Virus record (IMG/VR): IMGVR_UViG_3300036768_000302
Location: 1 to 37,720 of that record
Reading direction: 5' to 3' (one strand)
DNA: 37,720 nt
From: a virus
This document shows positions 4,071-21,837 of this stretch, piece by piece. The position numbers and the translations under genes are program-made. Under the pieces are notes generated by a model, which searched no databases, was not told the DNA's origin, and worked only from the letters and a program-made list of their open reading frames with translations. Numbering within the stretch: position 1 is the first letter of the stretch; the number at the start of each line of letters is the position of its first letter.

Positions 4071-4644
4071 CGCGCTGACGGCCCTCGCCGCCTACGGCGT
4101 CCACCCGACCGGATACGACGCCAGCGACGGCCTCACATACGGCCGGCTCCTCGAACTCGTCAGCGCCGGGCGGTCGGCGATCGTCCACGGCGACTACGAT
4201 GCGGTCCCGACCGCCCTCCGCGGTGACAAGGACTTCGAGGGTTATCACTCGGTCTTCCTCGCCGGCCTCGTCCCGTCCGGCGCGACGATCGGCGATCCGC
4301 TCAACGACGGGCGACGTCCGGGCATCCCGCGCGGCTGGGTCGTCTGGCCCCTCGACGTCCTCCGGCTCTACATGGAGCGCTTCCCGGGGGCCGGCCTCAC
4401 AGCGGCCATCATGCGGCTCGGGACGGCGACCGTCCGGGTCCCGGTCGCCAACGTCCGGGCGGGGCCGTCTCGGTCCTCGGCGATCATCACTCGTCTCAGG
4501 GCGGGGCGACGGCTCCGAGCATCCGAGAAGCCGGACCTCGGCGAAAGCGTCGGTGGCGACCGGCGCTGGTGGCGCGTCCTCCTCCCGACCGGCGGCGTCG
4601 CCTGGATGCACGCCTCTGTCGTCCTCGTCACCTCGAAGCCGTAG
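3886..4644 (+). CDS. Endolysin: C39-like papain-fold peptidase plus SH3b domain
   Basis: This 252-residue protein is preceded by ACAGGAGGGCCAC. Residues 1-165 look like a C39-like papain-fold peptidase: Cys22 in YNCNMAAAAML starts a helix, His121 lies in the strand motif YHSVFLAGL, and Asp137 in IGDPLNDG is the third catalytic candidate. Residues ~183-248 form an SH3b-like cell-wall binding domain (VANVRAGPSRSS, RRWWRVLLPTGGVAWMHASVV). The probable role is cleavage of peptidoglycan cross-links at the end of infection. It has no signal peptide, so export would need the neighbouring holin-like proteins. Lysis function is inferred from the fold and from its position between small membrane proteins. 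A structural murein hydrolase is an alternative. Confidence 0.75.
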   Translation: MATYLPDFKKQLTGTKLGPYNCNMAAAAMLADAATLGIVNVSADAMRRASGRDEPAGTTIADALTALAAYGVHPTGYDASDGLTYGRLLELVSAGRSAIVHGDYDAVPTALRGDKDFEGYHSVFLAGLVPSGATIGDPLNDGRRPGIPRGWVVWPLDVLRLYMERFPGAGLTAAIMRLGTATVRVPVANVRAGPSRSSAIITRLRAGRRLRASEKPDLGESVGGDRRWWRVLLPTGGVAWMHASVVLVTSKP

Positions 4645-5053: not shown

Positions 5054-5296
5054 TTAGCGCTCCTCGACGACTCGGTAGCCGCTGAGGGCGAGGCGGGCGA
5101 TCCGACCGTAGAAGCCCCGGAACGCCGCGTCCTCTTCCTTGACGAGGTACCGGAGGCGATGGACGCCGTCCTGATCCTCGAGCTGGACGATCCACCCCCG
5201 CTCGTCCATCGCGATGACGAGCGTGAGGACTCGCTCGCCCGAGGCGTTGTAGGCGACGACCTTCTGGACTGGGGTCGGGGTGGCGGGGGCTTCCAT
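5054..5296 (-). CDS. Small early protein, only leftward gene, function unknown
   Basis: This 80-residue protein begins with MEAPATPTPVQKVV and has a perfect AAAGGAGGTCCCC Shine-Dalgarno region. It reads as alternating strands (VLTLVIAMDERGWIVQLEDQDGVHRLRYLV) followed by a helix and YGRIARLALSGYRVVEER; no HTH is visible, so it is not an obvious repressor. It is driven by its own strong promoter (TTGACA-N17-TATATT, 5346-5374, minus strand) with the same leader hairpin as the other early genes. No homologue is recognised. Its control region and isolation on the minus strand point to an early host-takeover or regulatory role, which is an inference only. Confidence 0.8.
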   Translation of the reverse strand: MEAPATPTPVQKVVAYNASGERVLTLVIAMDERGWIVQLEDQDGVHRLRYLVKEEDAAFRGFYGRIARLALSGYRVVEER

Positions 5297-5319
5297 TTGG
5301 GGACCTCCTTTGGTCTACT

Positions 5320-5335
5320 GCCGGCTCTCTCCGGC
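5320..5335 (-). promoter_or_regulatory. 5' leader stem-loop of the leftward early gene
   Basis: In the transcript, GCCGG pairs with CCGGC around the loop AGAGAG. It starts about ten bases after the -10 element and ends eight bases before AAAGGAGG. It is one of four leaders with a different stem sequence but the same GAGAG-type loop. Confidence 0.65.
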
Positions 5336-5345
5336 TGATGGTCCG

Positions 5346-5374
5346 AATATATCACACCCGGGACCGCTTGTCAA
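5346..5374 (-). promoter_or_regulatory. Early promoter, leftward
   Basis: Reading the minus strand: TTGACA (5369-5374), a 17-base spacer, then TATATT (5346-5351). The -35 is preceded by CTAGGGTA, giving the shared string GGGTATTGACA. A second TTGACA lies exactly 21 bp upstream (5390-5395). Confidence 0.85.
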
Positions 5375-5453
5375 TACCCTAGTGCAGATTGTCAACGCGA
5401 TTTTTGGGGACCGGCGCGCTAGCCCGTGAACGGTCCAAACTAGGGTATTGACA
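5369..5453. promoter_or_regulatory. Divergent control region with 14-bp inverted repeat
   Basis: TGTCAATACCCTAG (5369-5382) and CTAGGGTATTGACA (5440-5453) are exact reverse complements that cover the -35 elements of the two divergent promoters. The string TAGGGTATTGACA recurs at 19948-19960 and GGGTATTGACA at 20908-20918. This suggests a binding site for a shared regulator next to RNA polymerase. No regulator is proven; the HTH protein at 7223-7666 is a candidate. Confidence 0.6.
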
Positions 5454-5485: not shown

Positions 5486-5505
5486 GCCGACCAGAGAGGA
5501 TCGGC
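5486..5505 (+). promoter_or_regulatory. 5' leader stem-loop of the rightward early operon
   Basis: GCCGA (5486-5490) pairs with TCGGC (5501-5505) around the loop CCAGAGAGGA. It sits close to the expected transcript 5' end and ten bases before AAAGGAGG. The loop keeps the GAGAG core shared with three other leaders. Confidence 0.6.
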
Positions 5506-5530
5506 GAGAGAACCCAAAGGAGGTCCCGAA

Positions 5531-6067
5531 ATGGCCACAGCGACAGTCCCCAAGCCCCGCTCCCGGAAGCCCGTCGTCGTCGCGCCGATCCCGGCGCCGA
5601 CGAAGGAGTCGTCCTCGGCGCGGGAACTCCGGCTCCGCTTCGAGGAGCGGCTCGCCAAGGTCGGCGGGCCGGGAACCGAAGCGGGGCAGCGCCTCATCGA
5701 GGAGGCGAAGCGCGACCGGCTCGCCGCGGCGCTCGGTCGCCGTCGGGCCGCCCGAGAGGCGCGGGCGAAGGTCGGGCCGGCAGCGAAGGCCGGGCCGGCC
5801 GAGGTCCATCCGCTCATCCTCAACCCCCGACCTCGGGACGAGCAGGGTCGCCCGCTGGAGCGGGTCGGGGCGCGGCTCGTCCCAGCCCGCAACCCCGAGG
5901 CGCTCACGCCGGAGGTTTGCGCCTATTGTGGCTACGGGCCGACGCCAAAGCAGGTCGAGGCGCTCAAGCTCGCCGCGACCCAAAACCGGCTCGTCGCACA
6001 CCGGGCCGCGATCCTCAAGGGGGAGCCGCGGCTCGCTAACCAGTACCTCGTCGCCGACGAGGCGTAA
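5531..6067 (+). CDS. First gene of early operon, unknown protein with one CxxC motif
   Basis: This 178-residue protein starts at the ATG behind AAAGGAGGTCCCGAA; an in-frame ATG at 5465 overlaps the promoter and is rejected. The N-terminus (~1-35) is basic and Pro/Ala-rich. A charged helical region with coiled-coil character follows (FEERLAKVGGPGTEAGQRL, RDRLAAALGRRRAAREARAK). The C-terminus has VCAYCGYGPTPKQVEALKLA and two amphipathic helices. A single CxxC is not enough to call a zinc finger. No family is recognised. It is the promoter-proximal gene of the recombination/replication operon and should be made early and in quantity. Confidence 0.8.
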   Translation: MATATVPKPRSRKPVVVAPIPAPTKESSSARELRLRFEERLAKVGGPGTEAGQRLIEEAKRDRLAAALGRRRAAREARAKVGPAAKAGPAEVHPLILNPRPRDEQGRPLERVGARLVPARNPEALTPEVCAYCGYGPTPKQVEALKLAATQNRLVAHRAAILKGEPRLANQYLVADEA

Positions 6068-7222: not shown

Positions 7223-7666
7223 ATGACAGGACAAGAACTCCGGGAACTCAGGCTTCAGGCGGGCGTCTCGGCCTCGCGGGTCGCTCGGCTTATGGGGGTG
7301 ACGCGACAGCGCGTCGCCGCGATCGAGCGGAACGGAGGCAGTGAGGAGACGGTCTCGCGCTACCTCGGCGCCGTCCGGGCAGCGTCGCGCTCGACGGGCG
7401 GCGTTGTGCGGGTCGTCCTCGGCCCTCCTCCCGTGACGGTCGGGTCGGCCGAATGGGTCGAGCTTCGGGTCGCCGGCGCTCCCTACGGGGCGGCGGTCCG
7501 GGCCGCTCGGCGCTGGCTCCGGCGGCATCGGCCGCGGGCCGTCGCGCTCGCGGTCGCCGACTACGAAGCGACCGACGCCGTCATCCGTACCCTCACCGAA
7601 GCCGGGGTCGAGGTGATCCCGGTCAAGATCGGGCGGGACGGGGTAGCTCGCCCCATCCGCCGTTGA
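7223..7666 (+). CDS. XRE-type helix-turn-helix DNA-binding protein
   Basis: This is a 147-residue protein. Residues 1-40 are a Cro/C1-type HTH: LRELRLQAGVSASRVARLMG, then VTRQRVAAIERNG, with a typical sharp turn. The remaining ~100 residues (from VVRVVLGPPPVTVGSAEWVE to VEVIPVKIGRDGVARP) form an alternating alpha/beta domain that I do not recognise. ATG 7223 follows GAGAGGAGC. An AAAGGAGG site at 7197 is too far from the start to serve it. The stop TGA lies inside the -35 of the next promoter (7663). It could be the regulator of the repeated early promoters, because it is the only clear HTH gene in the early operon; that link is inference. Confidence 0.8.
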   Translation: MTGQELRELRLQAGVSASRVARLMGVTRQRVAAIERNGGSEETVSRYLGAVRAASRSTGGVVRVVLGPPPVTVGSAEWVELRVAGAPYGAAVRAARRWLRRHRPRAVALAVADYEATDAVIRTLTEAGVEVIPVKIGRDGVARPIRR

Positions 7667-7691
7667 CAACGGCGAGCGGAGCGGGTACGAT
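7663..7691 (+). promoter_or_regulatory. Promoter for the exonuclease/RecT genes
   Basis: TTGACA (7663-7668), a 17-base spacer and TACGAT (7686-7691). It lacks the GGGTA flank of the other early promoters. TTGACA at the -35 and TGTCAA just after the -10 form an inverted pair. Its -35 overlaps the stop codon of the HTH gene. Confidence 0.75.
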
Positions 7692-7703: not shown

Positions 7704-7721
7704 GCGGGGCCGTCACCCCGC
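7704..7721 (+). promoter_or_regulatory. 5' leader stem-loop of the exonuclease gene
   Basis: GCGGGG (7704-7709) pairs with CCCCGC (7716-7721) around the loop CCGTCA, four bases before AAAGGAGG. The position matches the other leaders but the loop lacks GAGAG. Confidence 0.55.
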
Positions 7722-7738: not shown

Positions 7739-8704
7739 ATGGATCGACCTAGGCTCGGCATCGGAGGCTCCGACGCTCCCGTCATCGCCGGCCTCTCCCC
7801 GTGGAAATCCCCCGTCCAACTCTGGGCGGAGCGGCTCGGCATTGTCGAGCCGTCGACCCGTGAAACGCCGGAGATGCGCTGGGGGACGATCCTCGAACGC
7901 GTCGTCCTCGACGCCTACGAAGAGACGACGGGGCGGCGCGTCCGCCGACCGCGGCGGCTTCTCTGGCATCCCGAGGTCGAGTGGATGTTCGGCTCGCTCG
8001 ACGGGCTCACCGGCCGCGGACGATCGGTCCGGGTCGTCGAGGCGAAGACGGCTCGGCACGACCGGGGCTGGGGCGGCTCGCCGGTCCCCATCCCGGCCTA
8101 CTACTACTGCCAGGTCCAGCACTACATCGCGGTCACCCGCGCCGCCGGCGCGGACGTCGCGGTCCTCATCGCCGGCTCGGACTTCCGGGTCTACGGTATC
8201 GACCGCGACCAGGACTACATCGACGCCCTCATCGAGCTAGAGGCGGAGTTCGTCGACGCTCTCCGCAACCGGCGCGAACCCGACCTCGACGGGGCCGAGG
8301 GGACCTCGCGCTACCTCGCCGAGCGGTACGCCAAGGCCAGCGGCGAGGAGAAGGTCGCGACGCCGGAGCAGGAGGCGCTCGTCGAGGAACTCGTCGCGCG
8401 GGTCGAGGCGGCGGAGGCGGCGGAGCGGGCCGCCGAGGAGGCGCGGAACCGAGTCAAGGCCGTCCTCGGCTCGGCGACGGTCCTCTGGACACCGCGCTGG
8501 AAGGTCGCCTGGACACCGGTCTCGCGCGCCGGTACGGTCGACTGGCGAGCGGTCGCCGAGGGCTACCGCCAGGTCGCGCTCCGGCTCGATCCGGGCGTCG
8601 AGCAGGAGCTAGAGGCGGTCGTCGCCGCCAATCAGTCCAGCCCGAGTAGCTACCGGCGCTTCACCGTCACGCCGGTGAAAGGAGGTCCCGATGACGTCCG
8701 CTAG
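7739..8704 (+). CDS. YqaJ-like viral recombinase (lambda exonuclease family)
   Basis: This 321-residue protein starts at ATG behind AAAGGAGGGCTCGC. The YqaJ/lambda-exonuclease PD-(D/E)xK fold is clear: IGGSDAPVIAGLSPWKSPVQ at the N-terminus, Glu53 in GTILERVVLDAYEE, Asp88 in MFGSLDGL, the E101-A-K103 motif in VVEAKTARH, and the Q-x-Q helix YCQVQHYIAVT (Gln125/Gln127). A coiled-coil-like acidic helix follows (about 205-240), and then a C-terminal domain common in phage YqaJ proteins. The enzyme should resect double-stranded DNA 5' to 3' and hand a 3' strand to RecT, whose gene overlaps it by 14 bp. Together they form a Red-type recombination pair used in replication and repair. Confidence 0.93.
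   Translation: MDRPRLGIGGSDAPVIAGLSPWKSPVQLWAERLGIVEPSTRETPEMRWGTILERVVLDAYEETTGRRVRRPRRLLWHPEVEWMFGSLDGLTGRGRSVRVVEAKTARHDRGWGGSPVPIPAYYYCQVQHYIAVTRAAGADVAVLIAGSDFRVYGIDRDQDYIDALIELEAEFVDALRNRREPDLDGAEGTSRYLAERYAKASGEEKVATPEQEALVEELVARVEAAEAAERAAEEARNRVKAVLGSATVLWTPRWKVAWTPVSRAGTVDWRAVAEGYRQVALRLDPGVEQELEAVVAANQSSPSSYRRFTVTPVKGGPDDVR
8661..8678 (+). promoter_or_regulatory. Hairpin adjoining the RecT Shine-Dalgarno
   Basis: TCACCG (8661-8666) pairs with CGGTGA (8673-8678) around TCACGC, inside the end of the exonuclease gene and touching AAAGGAGG at 8678-8685. It may set RecT translation relative to the exonuclease. Confidence 0.45.
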
Positions 8705-9865: not shown

Positions 9866-10095
9866 ACGAGAAGGACCTCCTCCGGGCGACGGCGGCCTCC
9901 GGGCCGCCGTCCCGCTGCCCAGGCGTTCCCGAGTACCGGTTCATCTGCGGAGCGATGGTTCCGGCTCCGCGTATCCTCTGCCACTTCTGTCGGCGGACGA
10001 TCGAACTCCGGTGGGCCGGTATACGCTCGACCGCCGGCGAGGGGCTCGGGACCTCCCCTCGCCGGCGACCAGCTAGAGGAGGGCAGTATGGCTAG
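9862..10095 (+). CDS. Small Cys-rich (zinc-ribbon-like) protein
   Basis: It starts at GTG 9862, overlapping the previous stop (GTGA), and encodes 77 residues. Two Cys clusters are visible: CPGVPEYRFICGAMVP and LCHFCRRTIELRW, a four-Cys arrangement that could bind one zinc. The C-terminal third is basic and low in complexity (RRRPARGGQYG) and its DNA contains the hairpin at 10032-10067. It overlaps the next start by eight bases. The family is unknown. A nucleic-acid-binding role near the replication gene is possible. Confidence 0.6.
   Translation: MNEKDLLRATAASGPPSRCPGVPEYRFICGAMVPAPRILCHFCRRTIELRWAGIRSTAGEGLGTSPRRRPARGGQYG
10032..10067 (+). promoter_or_regulatory. 13-bp hairpin before the replication protein start
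   Basis: CGCCGGCGAGGGG (10032-10044) pairs perfectly with CCCCTCGCCGGCG (10055-10067) around a ten-base loop. It lies in the end of the preceding small gene, nine bases before AGAGGAGG, which serves the ATG at 10088. Confidence 0.6.
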
Positions 10096-19912: not shown

Positions 19913-19933
19913 AAAATTCTCCGAAAAATCCCG

Positions 19934-19960
19934 TTGACAAGGCGCGATAGGGTATTGACA
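19934..19960 (+). promoter_or_regulatory. Tandem TTGACA sites 21 bp apart
   Basis: TTGACA occurs at 19934-19939 and again at 19955-19960. The same 21-bp spacing, with GAAAAATC/CAAAAATC upstream and TAGGGTA between, is found on the minus strand at 5390-5395 and 5369-5374. Two helical turns suggest paired sites for a dimeric regulator or a duplicated -35. Confidence 0.6.
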
Positions 19961-19997: not shown

Positions 19998-20016
19998 GCG
20001 GGGCGAGAGACCCCGC
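19998..20016 (+). promoter_or_regulatory. 5' leader stem-loop of the anti-CRISPR operon
   Basis: GCGGGG (19998-20003) pairs with CCCCGC (20011-20016) around CGAGAGA. The hairpin sits near the transcript 5' end and ten bases before AAAGGAGGTCCC. It is a member of the covarying GAGAG-loop set. Confidence 0.7.
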
Positions 20017-20041
20017 GGGAGACCAGAAAGGAGGTCCCGAA

Positions 20042-20521
20042 ATGGCCCAGTATCAAGTCAAGGACGCCGACACCGGGCTGGTCTGGGAGGTCCCGGGCCG
20101 GTCCGCCCAGCAGGTCGCCAACGAGGAAGCTCGGGCTTGGGCGACCGAGCTTCAGTCCCGGATCGAGGAGACGACGGACTTCACGCTCCGGGCTTGGGTC
20201 CTCCTCCCGAAGTGCCCCGAATGCGGAGGCAGGATCGTCGAGTACTCGCCGGAGTGGATCGCCGTCATCGCCATCTGCGAAGACGGTCACGAGACGATCG
20301 TCGAGGACAGCGCCGAGGTCTCCGAGGTCGTCCACCCGCTCCCGCCGACTTGCAAGGGCGGCGGGACCGATCACGACTGGAAGCAGACCGGCGTCTGGGG
20401 TCACGGCGCCGGAGTCGCGATCCAGGAGGAATGCACCAAGTGCCACGCCCGGCGGATCGAGGACACCCGCCCGGGCTATGAGGGCATCGCCTACGAGGCG
20501 GCCCCCACCTACGAAGACTAG
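20042..20521 (+). CDS. Zinc-ribbon-containing early protein, function unknown
   Basis: This 159-residue protein starts at the ATG behind AAAGGAGGTCCCGAA and is the first gene after the promoter at 19955. The N-terminus (YQVKDADTGLVWEVPGRSAQ) is beta-like and acidic, followed by LQSRIEETTDFTLRAWVLLP. A KCPECGGRIVEY motif and ICEDGHETIVED give a possible zinc ribbon. A second pair, TCKGGGTDHDWKQ and ECTKCHARRIED, gives another. The protein is acidic overall. It is encoded just before the DUF1874 gene in the same transcript, so it may be another early anti-host or anti-defence factor. No homologue is recognised. Confidence 0.8.
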   Translation: MAQYQVKDADTGLVWEVPGRSAQQVANEEARAWATELQSRIEETTDFTLRAWVLLPKCPECGGRIVEYSPEWIAVIAICEDGHETIVEDSAEVSEVVHPLPPTCKGGGTDHDWKQTGVWGHGAGVAIQEECTKCHARRIEDTRPGYEGIAYEAAPTYED

Positions 20522-20532
20522 GAGGTCCCCAA

Positions 20533-20916
20533 GTGGCTATCTACCTCGCCAACGCCCTCGTCCCGGTCGAGGGCGTCCACTACATCTACCGGCTCGGGCG
20601 GCTCGACTCGCCGCTCGCCGCCCAGGTCGTCCGGGCGCTCGCCGCCCGGGCGGACGGCTCCGCCATCGGACACCCGTCGACGGCTCGGCTCCTCGGGGTG
20701 GAGCCATCCCGGGCCGAGCTTCAGCCGGAGGCTGGCGACGTCCTCGTCGTCGTCCGGCTAGCTCGGCGGAACCCCACGTCCGGCGGCGACGTCGACGTCA
20801 CGCCGGCCGACTTGGAGGCGCTCCTCCAGCTCGTGCTGGGGCCGGCGCCATCACTCGACTCCGCGGTCGACGCGATCCTCCTCGGATCGAGTGAACATCC
20901 TGAAAATGGGTATTGA
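20533..20916 (+). CDS. DUF1874 / AcrIII-1-like viral ring nuclease (anti-CRISPR)
   Basis: It starts at GTG 20533 behind AGGAGGTCCCCAA and encodes 127 residues. The DUF1874 (STIV B116-like) pattern is clear: MAIYLANAL at the N-terminus with Asn7, the signature GSAIGHPSTARLLGV containing His47, and PEAGDVLVVVRLARRNP, then TPADLEALLQLVLG. In the characterised archaeal-virus member (SIRV1 gp29, AcrIII-1) the family degrades cyclic tetra-adenylate and so switches off type III CRISPR ancillary nucleases; as I recall, the essential histidine there is also His47. The same role is inferred here, acting in the host cytoplasm early in infection. The last ~20 residues are an extension. The stop overlaps the -35 of the next promoter (20913). 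Confidence 0.85.
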   Translation: MAIYLANALVPVEGVHYIYRLGRLDSPLAAQVVRALAARADGSAIGHPSTARLLGVEPSRAELQPEAGDVLVVVRLARRNPTSGGDVDVTPADLEALLQLVLGPAPSLDSAVDAILLGSSEHPENGY

Positions 20917-20954: not shown

Positions 20955-20978
20955 GGGGCGGACGAGAGGACCCGCCCC
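20955..20978 (+). promoter_or_regulatory. 5' leader stem-loop of the gene at 21001
   Basis: GGGGCGG (20955-20961) pairs with CCGCCCC (20972-20978) around ACGAGAGGAC, eight bases before AAAGGAGGTCCC. The stem differs from the other copies but the loop core is kept. Confidence 0.7.
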
Positions 20979-21000
20979 CAGAGCAGAAAGGAGGTCCCAA

Positions 21001-21210
21001 GTGGACGCCACCCCGATCCGACCCGAGCACCTCGGTACCGACGCGACCGAGGGCGACGTCGTCGCCTACCTCCACCTCGTCGAGCTACTCGGCGGCGACG
21101 AAGCCGCCGCTTGGAACGGCGGCGATTGGACCGCCGGGCTCGTCGCCAGGGGGTATGGGCGAACCGACGACGGCCGTTGGACGGCTCCCGACGGTCGGGA
21201 GCTGGAGTAG
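21001..21210 (+). CDS. 69-aa early acidic protein
   Basis: It starts at GTG 21001 behind AAAGGAGGTCCCAA, directly after its own promoter and leader hairpin. The product is acidic: RPEHLGTDATEGDVVAYLHL, a helix ending in VELLGGDEAAAW, and a beta-like C-terminus (GYGRTDDGRWTAPDGRELE). Small acidic early proteins are often DNA mimics or inhibitors of host enzymes; the sequence cannot tell. The stop codon TAG is part of the hairpin that precedes the next gene. No homologue is recognised. Confidence 0.75.
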   Translation: MDATPIRPEHLGTDATEGDVVAYLHLVELLGGDEAAAWNGGDWTAGLVARGYGRTDDGRWTAPDGRELE

Positions 21211-21241: not shown

Positions 21242-21592
21242 ATGATCCAGGACGCCATCCCCGCCAGCCGCTCGCTCCCCATCATCGACCGGCTCCTCCG
21301 GGCGACATTCCCGGAGTTCCGGGGGCGCCGGGTTACGGTCCGACCATGGACCGGCCCGGTTTGGGTCCAATGGAACTGGGACGAGGGGCGCCGGGACCTC
21401 GTCCGGGTGGTGACCCAAGACGGGAAGGTGGCGGTCCCGACCGTCCCGGCACCATGGAACCACGACTGGCCCAAGCCGCGACCGGAGGAGTGGGGGCCGG
21501 GCGCGATCCTCGTCGTCCTCCACGAGGACTTCGGTCGGCAGTACGTCACCATCTACGCCAGCCCGACCGAAGTCCGGGAGGCGCTCCGATGA
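21242..21592 (+). CDS. 116-aa hypothetical protein
   Basis: It starts at the ATG behind AAAGGAGGTCCCGCA. An N-terminal helix (SLPIIDRLLRATFPEFRG) is followed by RRVTVRPWTGPVWVQWNWDE, the strands DLVRVVTQDGKVAVPTV, a Pro/Trp-rich loop, and ILVVLHEDFGRQYVTIYA. It looks like a compact alpha/beta protein. It is probably transcribed from the promoter at 20913 together with the preceding gene. The next start overlaps its stop (ATGA). No family is recognised; association with the anti-CRISPR island suggests an early accessory role. Confidence 0.75.
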   Translation: MIQDAIPASRSLPIIDRLLRATFPEFRGRRVTVRPWTGPVWVQWNWDEGRRDLVRVVTQDGKVAVPTVPAPWNHDWPKPRPEEWGPGAILVVLHEDFGRQYVTIYASPTEVREALR

Positions 21593-21837
21593 GGCCGGTC
21601 GCCGTCATCTACCGGGCGCTCCGTCGCCGGTCCTCATATCGGGGCCGGCTCGCCGTCGCGCTCTACCGGGCGCTCTGCCGGGCGGCTCGCCGGGCAGACG
21701 CCTACGGGCGGACCGCCCCGCTTACGGTCGAGGCGGAGTGGCTCGTCGACCGCCTGGCGGTCACCCTCCGCAGGGCGACCGAGGAGCGGCTCGCTCGGCG
21801 CGACGATCGGCTCCGGCGAGGCGCGGTCGGGCGGTAG
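21589..21837 (+). CDS. 82-aa basic helical protein
   Basis: The start overlaps the previous stop. The product is strongly basic and helical: VIYRALRRRSSYRGRLAVAL, YRALCRAARRADAYG and VDRLAVTLRRATEERLARRD. This composition suggests nucleic-acid or membrane association. It is the last gene of the island before the portal gene. No family is recognised. Confidence 0.65.
   Translation: MRPVAVIYRALRRRSSYRGRLAVALYRALCRAARRADAYGRTAPLTVEAEWLVDRLAVTLRRATEERLARRDDRLRRGAVGR

Follow-up and report, generated by a model that had tools for sequence, protein, structure and literature searches.

The window, that is, the whole stretch of DNA analysed here (an IMG/VR virus record of 37.7 kb, 71% G+C), carries genes encoding RecE-like, RecT-like and ParB-like proteins, the large terminase, the portal, a head morphogenesis protein and the major capsid protein. 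Its terminase and capsid share less than 60% sequence identity with every record of the phage collection. The best full-length capsid relative among 400 Chloroflexota genomes reaches 62%, and the best in viral contigs 65%, leaving aside a fragment almost identical to the window (L255) that covers the structural genes only; Chloroflexota are a possible host. Four promoters in this genome are followed by a leader hairpin with GAGAG in its loop, a Shine-Dalgarno (SD) sequence and a gene (Table 1). P5374- and P5448 point away from each other, the latter towards non-structural genes, an orientation that would fit an early switch, and P19955 and P20913 are located between terminase and portal, ahead of small genes without assigned function. 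The first-pass annotation had attributed all four to early genes, which was borne out for none of them and is doubtful for the last two. The stretch 20533-20916 gives a weak, below-cutoff Pfam match to STIV_B116-like proteins.

Table 1. Coordinates of the promoter cassettes and of the internal control in the window
Feature	Coordinates	Strand	Remark
Upstream element ATCGCGTTGACA	5390..5401	-	21 bp ahead of P5374- -35
Promoter P5374-	5346..5374	-	TTGACA-17-TATATT
Leader hairpin GCCGG/AGAGAG/CCGGC	5320..5335	-	ends 8 nt before AAAGGAGG
SD AAAGGAGG	5304..5311	-	
80-aa gene	5054..5296	-	behind P5374-; no PHROG or Pfam match
Upstream element AGCCCGTGAACG	5421..5432	+	21 bp ahead of P5448 -35
Promoter P5448	5448..5476	+	TTGACA-17-TATCGT
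Leader hairpin GCCGA/CCAGAGAGGA/TCGGC	5486..5505	+	ends 10 nt before AAAGGAGG
SD AAAGGAGG	5516..5523	+	
178-aa gene	5531..6067	+	behind P5448; no match
Promoter P7663 (fifth)	7663..7691	+	TTGACA-17-TACGAT, without GGGTA -35 extension
Leader hairpin GCGGGG/CCGTCA/CCCCGC	7704..7721	+	no GAGAG; internal control
RecE-like exonuclease gene	7739..8704	+	behind P7663
Upstream element ATCCCGTTGACA	19928..19939	+	21 bp ahead of P19955 -35
Promoter P19955	19955..19983	+	TTGACA-17-TATATT
Leader hairpin GCGGGG/CGAGAGA/CCCCGC	19998..20016	+	ends 10 nt before AAAGGAGG
SD AAAGGAGG	20027..20034	+	
159-aa gene	20042..20521	+	behind P19955; Cys-rich, zinc-ribbon-like by eye; no match
Upstream element ATCGAGTGAACA	20886..20897	+	21 bp ahead of P20913 -35
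Promoter P20913	20913..20941	+	TTGACA-17-TATATT
Leader hairpin GGGGCGG/ACGAGAGGAC/CCGCCCC	20955..20978	+	ends 8 nt before AAAGGAGG
SD AAAGGAGG	20987..20994	+	
69-aa gene	21001..21210	+	behind P20913; no match

The -35 of all four GAGAG-leader promoters is embedded in GGGTATTGACAA, and these four are the only sites of TATTGACAA in the window when up to one mismatch is allowed (0.24 expected). Each promoter is preceded by a TKRACA-type word (GTTGACA or GTGAAC[A/G]) whose distance to the -35 is exactly 21 bp (two helical turns); of the 28 columns ahead of the -35, 11 are invariant, against about one expected (3.3% per column). We regard this word as a candidate site of a common transcription factor. 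Constrained blocks alternate with unrelated sequence along the four cassettes, the mean pairwise identity being 72% in the promoter spacer, 93% in the SD-to-start block and 58-61% in the linker and arms. At the other end of the cassette, AAAGGAGGTCC occurs at six sites, four of them at these leaders.

Placed between promoter and SD and stopping 8-10 nt ahead of AAAGGAGG, the four hairpins lie where the first-pass annotation had drawn them, with the stems and loops that it described, exact to the base. All four stems are perfectly paired over 5-7 bp with differing letters, and every loop contains GAGAG. They all begin 9-14 nt past the -10. The loops between the perfect stems measure 6-10 nt and hold the GAGAG core in variable register, 16-22 nt past the -10 and 13-18 nt ahead of the SD; the hairpin at 19998..20016 has an alternative fold with a C-GAGA-G tetraloop and a bulged A. 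When each leader was folded together with 40 nt of its gene, the stem of P20913 had a pair probability of about 0.76 and the other four stems one of 0.96-1.0, the GAGAG bases were predicted to be mostly unpaired, and the SD came out partly paired in all but one of the four GAGAG leaders. The leaders contain only 3-7% U (1-2 U each), and purines make up 60-76% of their unpaired positions.

Since stems form readily in such a G+C-rich genome, a lone one is unimpressive: a comparable stem is present in 1-15% of random 34-nt pieces of the window, according to the score required. What is impressive is a stem in 5/5 leaders that follow a sigma70-type promoter and precede an SD, and all five exceed their shuffled counterparts. 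Against dinucleotide shuffles of each leader, the stem score has p = 0.0035, 0.0065, 0.0035 and <0.0005 for the hairpins at 5320-5335, 5486-5505, 19998-20016 and 20955-20978, respectively, with folding energies 2.5-4.2 sd below the shuffles (z -2.5 to -4.2). For the loop word, GAGAG in 4/4 loops has a probability of about 1.4e-7 (product over the leaders, the unpaired composition of each being kept); any common 5-mer in the four loops would arise with a probability of 1e-5, which rises to 3e-4 if the shuffling is confined to the loop. On the + strand, GAGAG is rare, with 11 occurrences in 37.7 kb, four of which fall within three of the leaders. The window has a marked strand bias for this word, with 102 copies on the - strand; most of its genes lie on the + strand.

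The hairpin of P7663 lacks GAGAG, as its promoter lacks the GGGTA extension, and GAGAG loops are restricted to the GGGTATTGACAA class; leader hairpins are thus a wider habit of this phage, the GAGAG loop being tied to one promoter class. A descriptor made of a GAGAG-loop hairpin, an SD and a start codon was used in place of a covariance model, since the 5' arms are misplaced when the sequences are aligned; it matched four sites in the window against four in the other loci searched, which total about 3.4 Mb, and control descriptors built on ten other 5-mer cores matched 0-1 window sites. Elsewhere in the window, a hairpin GGGGG/CAGGT/CCCCC precedes the SD of the gene at 21242, where there is no promoter, and an 11-bp inverted repeat (CCGGCGAGGGG/CCCCTCGCCGG) without a T run lies at 10000-10087, upstream of a replication-initiator-like gene that starts at 10088.

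The four cassettes could instead go back to an old duplication, their loops and flanks being alike by descent and their stems being of the sort that 71% G+C makes common, as the figures for random pieces illustrate. P5374- and P20913 indeed have almost the same promoter spacer. However, conserved blocks broken by unrelated sequence fit constraint better than recent copying, and a stem is found in every one of the five leaders; we therefore consider common descent by itself an improbable explanation. At the level of sequence, both the anatomy of the cassette and its non-randomness are established.

Are the repeats selected as RNA structure, as had been proposed, or as DNA? Stems beyond shuffles, a loop kept while the arms vary, and a floating distance to the promoter all speak for the former; the part of that proposal that goes too far is the word covariation. 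The stems are unequal in length (5, 5, 6 and 7 bp) and their arms can be matched solely through their own pairing. Of the first five pairs, counted from the outside, pairs 2, 3 and 5 have different letters in both arms and are still paired, in what are only four copies from one genome. An inverted repeat just past the start site could also be a DNA operator, like CIRCE for HrcA, and the order promoter, inverted repeat, SD is the same as that of the CIRCE-like repeats TTAGCAATC-N9-GATTGCTAA that we observed ahead of Hsp20 genes in two Dehalococcoidia loci (L105 and L124). An operator would nevertheless conserve its arms, whereas here arms and arm length differ and the centre is kept; its distance to the -10 would not be expected to float by 6 nt; and the TKRACA pair, at its fixed 21-bp spacing, is the better operator candidate. 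Operators of this kind are thus quite unlikely. Because the arms differ, the core is kept and the distance floats, an RNA element is favoured over a DNA operator, and we regard the hairpin as a real repeated RNA module.

The reading that we prefer, at roughly even odds (about 0.5), is that the hairpin is an insulating or stabilising, 5'-proximal and U-poor leader element within a co-regulated promoter cassette. The four sites would be copies of one cassette, in which the TKRACA element is followed by a strong sigma70-type promoter, a U-poor hairpin leader and a near-perfect Shine-Dalgarno. RNA polymerase would start about 7 nt past the -10, leaving 3-8 free 5' nucleotides before the stem (about +3 to +8). 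Folding co-transcriptionally, the stem may hinder 5'-end-dependent decay and suppress other pairing of the leader, whether internal or with the gene body, and the purine-rich single-stranded stretch beside the SD would be left for the ribosome. Stem letters would be free to change provided that pairing persists, and the GAGAG loop would mark the promoter class, either as an unpaired purine element or as the recognition point for a putative factor. Stabilisation of mRNA at a distance by 5' hairpins is an established principle in E. coli, and even more so in B. subtilis (PMC3997798). Three points count against a stabiliser. First, the 7-8 free 5' nucleotides predicted at most, at P19955 and P20913, probably exceed what is ideal for 5'-end protection. 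Second, the SD is predicted to be partly paired in all but one of the four GAGAG leaders, which would weigh against the open-SD step. Third, stabilisation by itself leaves the presence of GAGAG in all four loops unexplained.

It is for this last reason that a recognition role keeps some weight. The stem and GAGAG loop may be the candidate site at which an RNA-binding protein, from phage or host, would switch the four transcripts together, through their translation or their decay, a tentative reading that we hold to be possible rather than probable. A loop core kept in all four copies against about 1e-7 by composition, its association with one promoter class, the short distance of 8-10 nt to the SD and the concentration of descriptor matches in this genome are all consistent with such a site, as is a small Arg-rich protein in the P20913 gene cluster (21589-21837; 82 aa, very Arg-rich and, by eye only, a possible nucleic-acid binder). 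On the other hand, none of the leader-gene products matched an RNA-binding family, GA-rich words are found outside the loops too, and loop size and register vary. Combining the two levels, the fixed-spacing DNA element and the variable-stem GAGAG hairpin could form a two-part tag for a regulon, with a dedicated RNA-binding protein bound to the hairpin and the same genes controlled twice, in their transcription and in the translation or decay of their mRNA; we think this rather unlikely. The evidence base for the GAGAG leaders is four copies in one genome. If real, they would represent a compact leader RNA, repeated within a phage genome, whose sequence constraint falls on the loop and not on the stem, from a lineage without cultured relatives. 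The four matched leaders make a testable set, with the P7663 leader, in which the loop word is missing, as a natural control.

Relatives of the cassette were sought in several collections. A near-DNA search of the phage collection gave no match, and cassette patterns in viral contigs gave one, by chance; a looser pattern in the same contigs matched at least 119 stretches, and module and leader genes were absent from those inspected. The product of the gene at 20042 had no relative in viral contigs or phages, nor did those at 5531 and 21001 in phages. The promoter-SD pattern in genome contigs retrieved 23 unrelated promoters, two of them with CIRCE-like operators, and the cassette was absent from the more distant capsid relatives and Chloroflexota loci inspected. 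One partly related phage (G001) shares 34-82% identity with several window genes over the matched stretches; in its record IMGVR_UViG_3300035183_000564 (L099), a 50-aa stretch is 60% identical to the product of 20533-20916. The same record carries type II hammerhead ribozymes at three sites (1849-1920, 2182-2252 and 4211-4279, all on the - strand), each scoring above the Rfam gathering cutoff and at least one immediately preceding an SD; a similar sequence with a CUGACGA core, below the Rfam listing threshold, lies near 560-640, ahead of another SD. Hammerheads flanking phage genes are known (PMC3088659). Hammerhead cleavage would likewise yield an mRNA starting with a hairpin, which is only an analogy.

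Several known elements were compared with the leaders. No Rfam 15 family was found at or above its gathering threshold, permissive scans giving chance matches only. The CsrA/RsmA word ANGGA is present in 0/4 loops, and the stems are followed by a purine stretch and the SD, not by the U tract of an intrinsic terminator or attenuator. CIRCE resembles the leaders as an inverted repeat between promoter and SD, but its arms are conserved DNA and theirs are not; the arms TTAGCACTC-N9-GAGTGCTAA are absent, those of the leaders being unrelated. In phage leaders, lambda boxB in the nut sites is a short G+C stem with a purine loop, to which the GAGAG hairpins bear some likeness. A nascent-RNA element acting on RNA polymerase in the manner of nut or put could account for this resemblance and for a position within the first 50 nt of the transcripts. 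However, no boxA word like CGCUCUUUA occurs in leaders with 1-2 U each, the loops are 6-10 nt with a GAGAG core instead of 5-nt GNRA-like or GNRNA pentaloops, the gene begins immediately downstream, the arrangement is not operon-scale, and Rfam gave no match, which makes this very improbable. The SAS/ESAS of cluster K mycobacteriophages (PMC3203893) are likewise a repeated start-associated module with a short-spacer inverted repeat upstream of an SD-containing word. ESAS, however, has 17-bp consensus arms and a variable spacer, whereas the GAGAG leaders have variable 5-7 bp arms, differing among copies, and a kept loop; their word is AAAGGAGGTCCC where SAS has GGGATAGGAGCCC at the start codon. 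Closest to the preferred reading are the 5'-terminal stabilising stem-loops of the ompA, papA and aprE type, which the leaders would resemble in having a hairpin near the predicted 5' end, before the SD. The phage hairpins differ from these in being repeated at several promoters with a common loop word.
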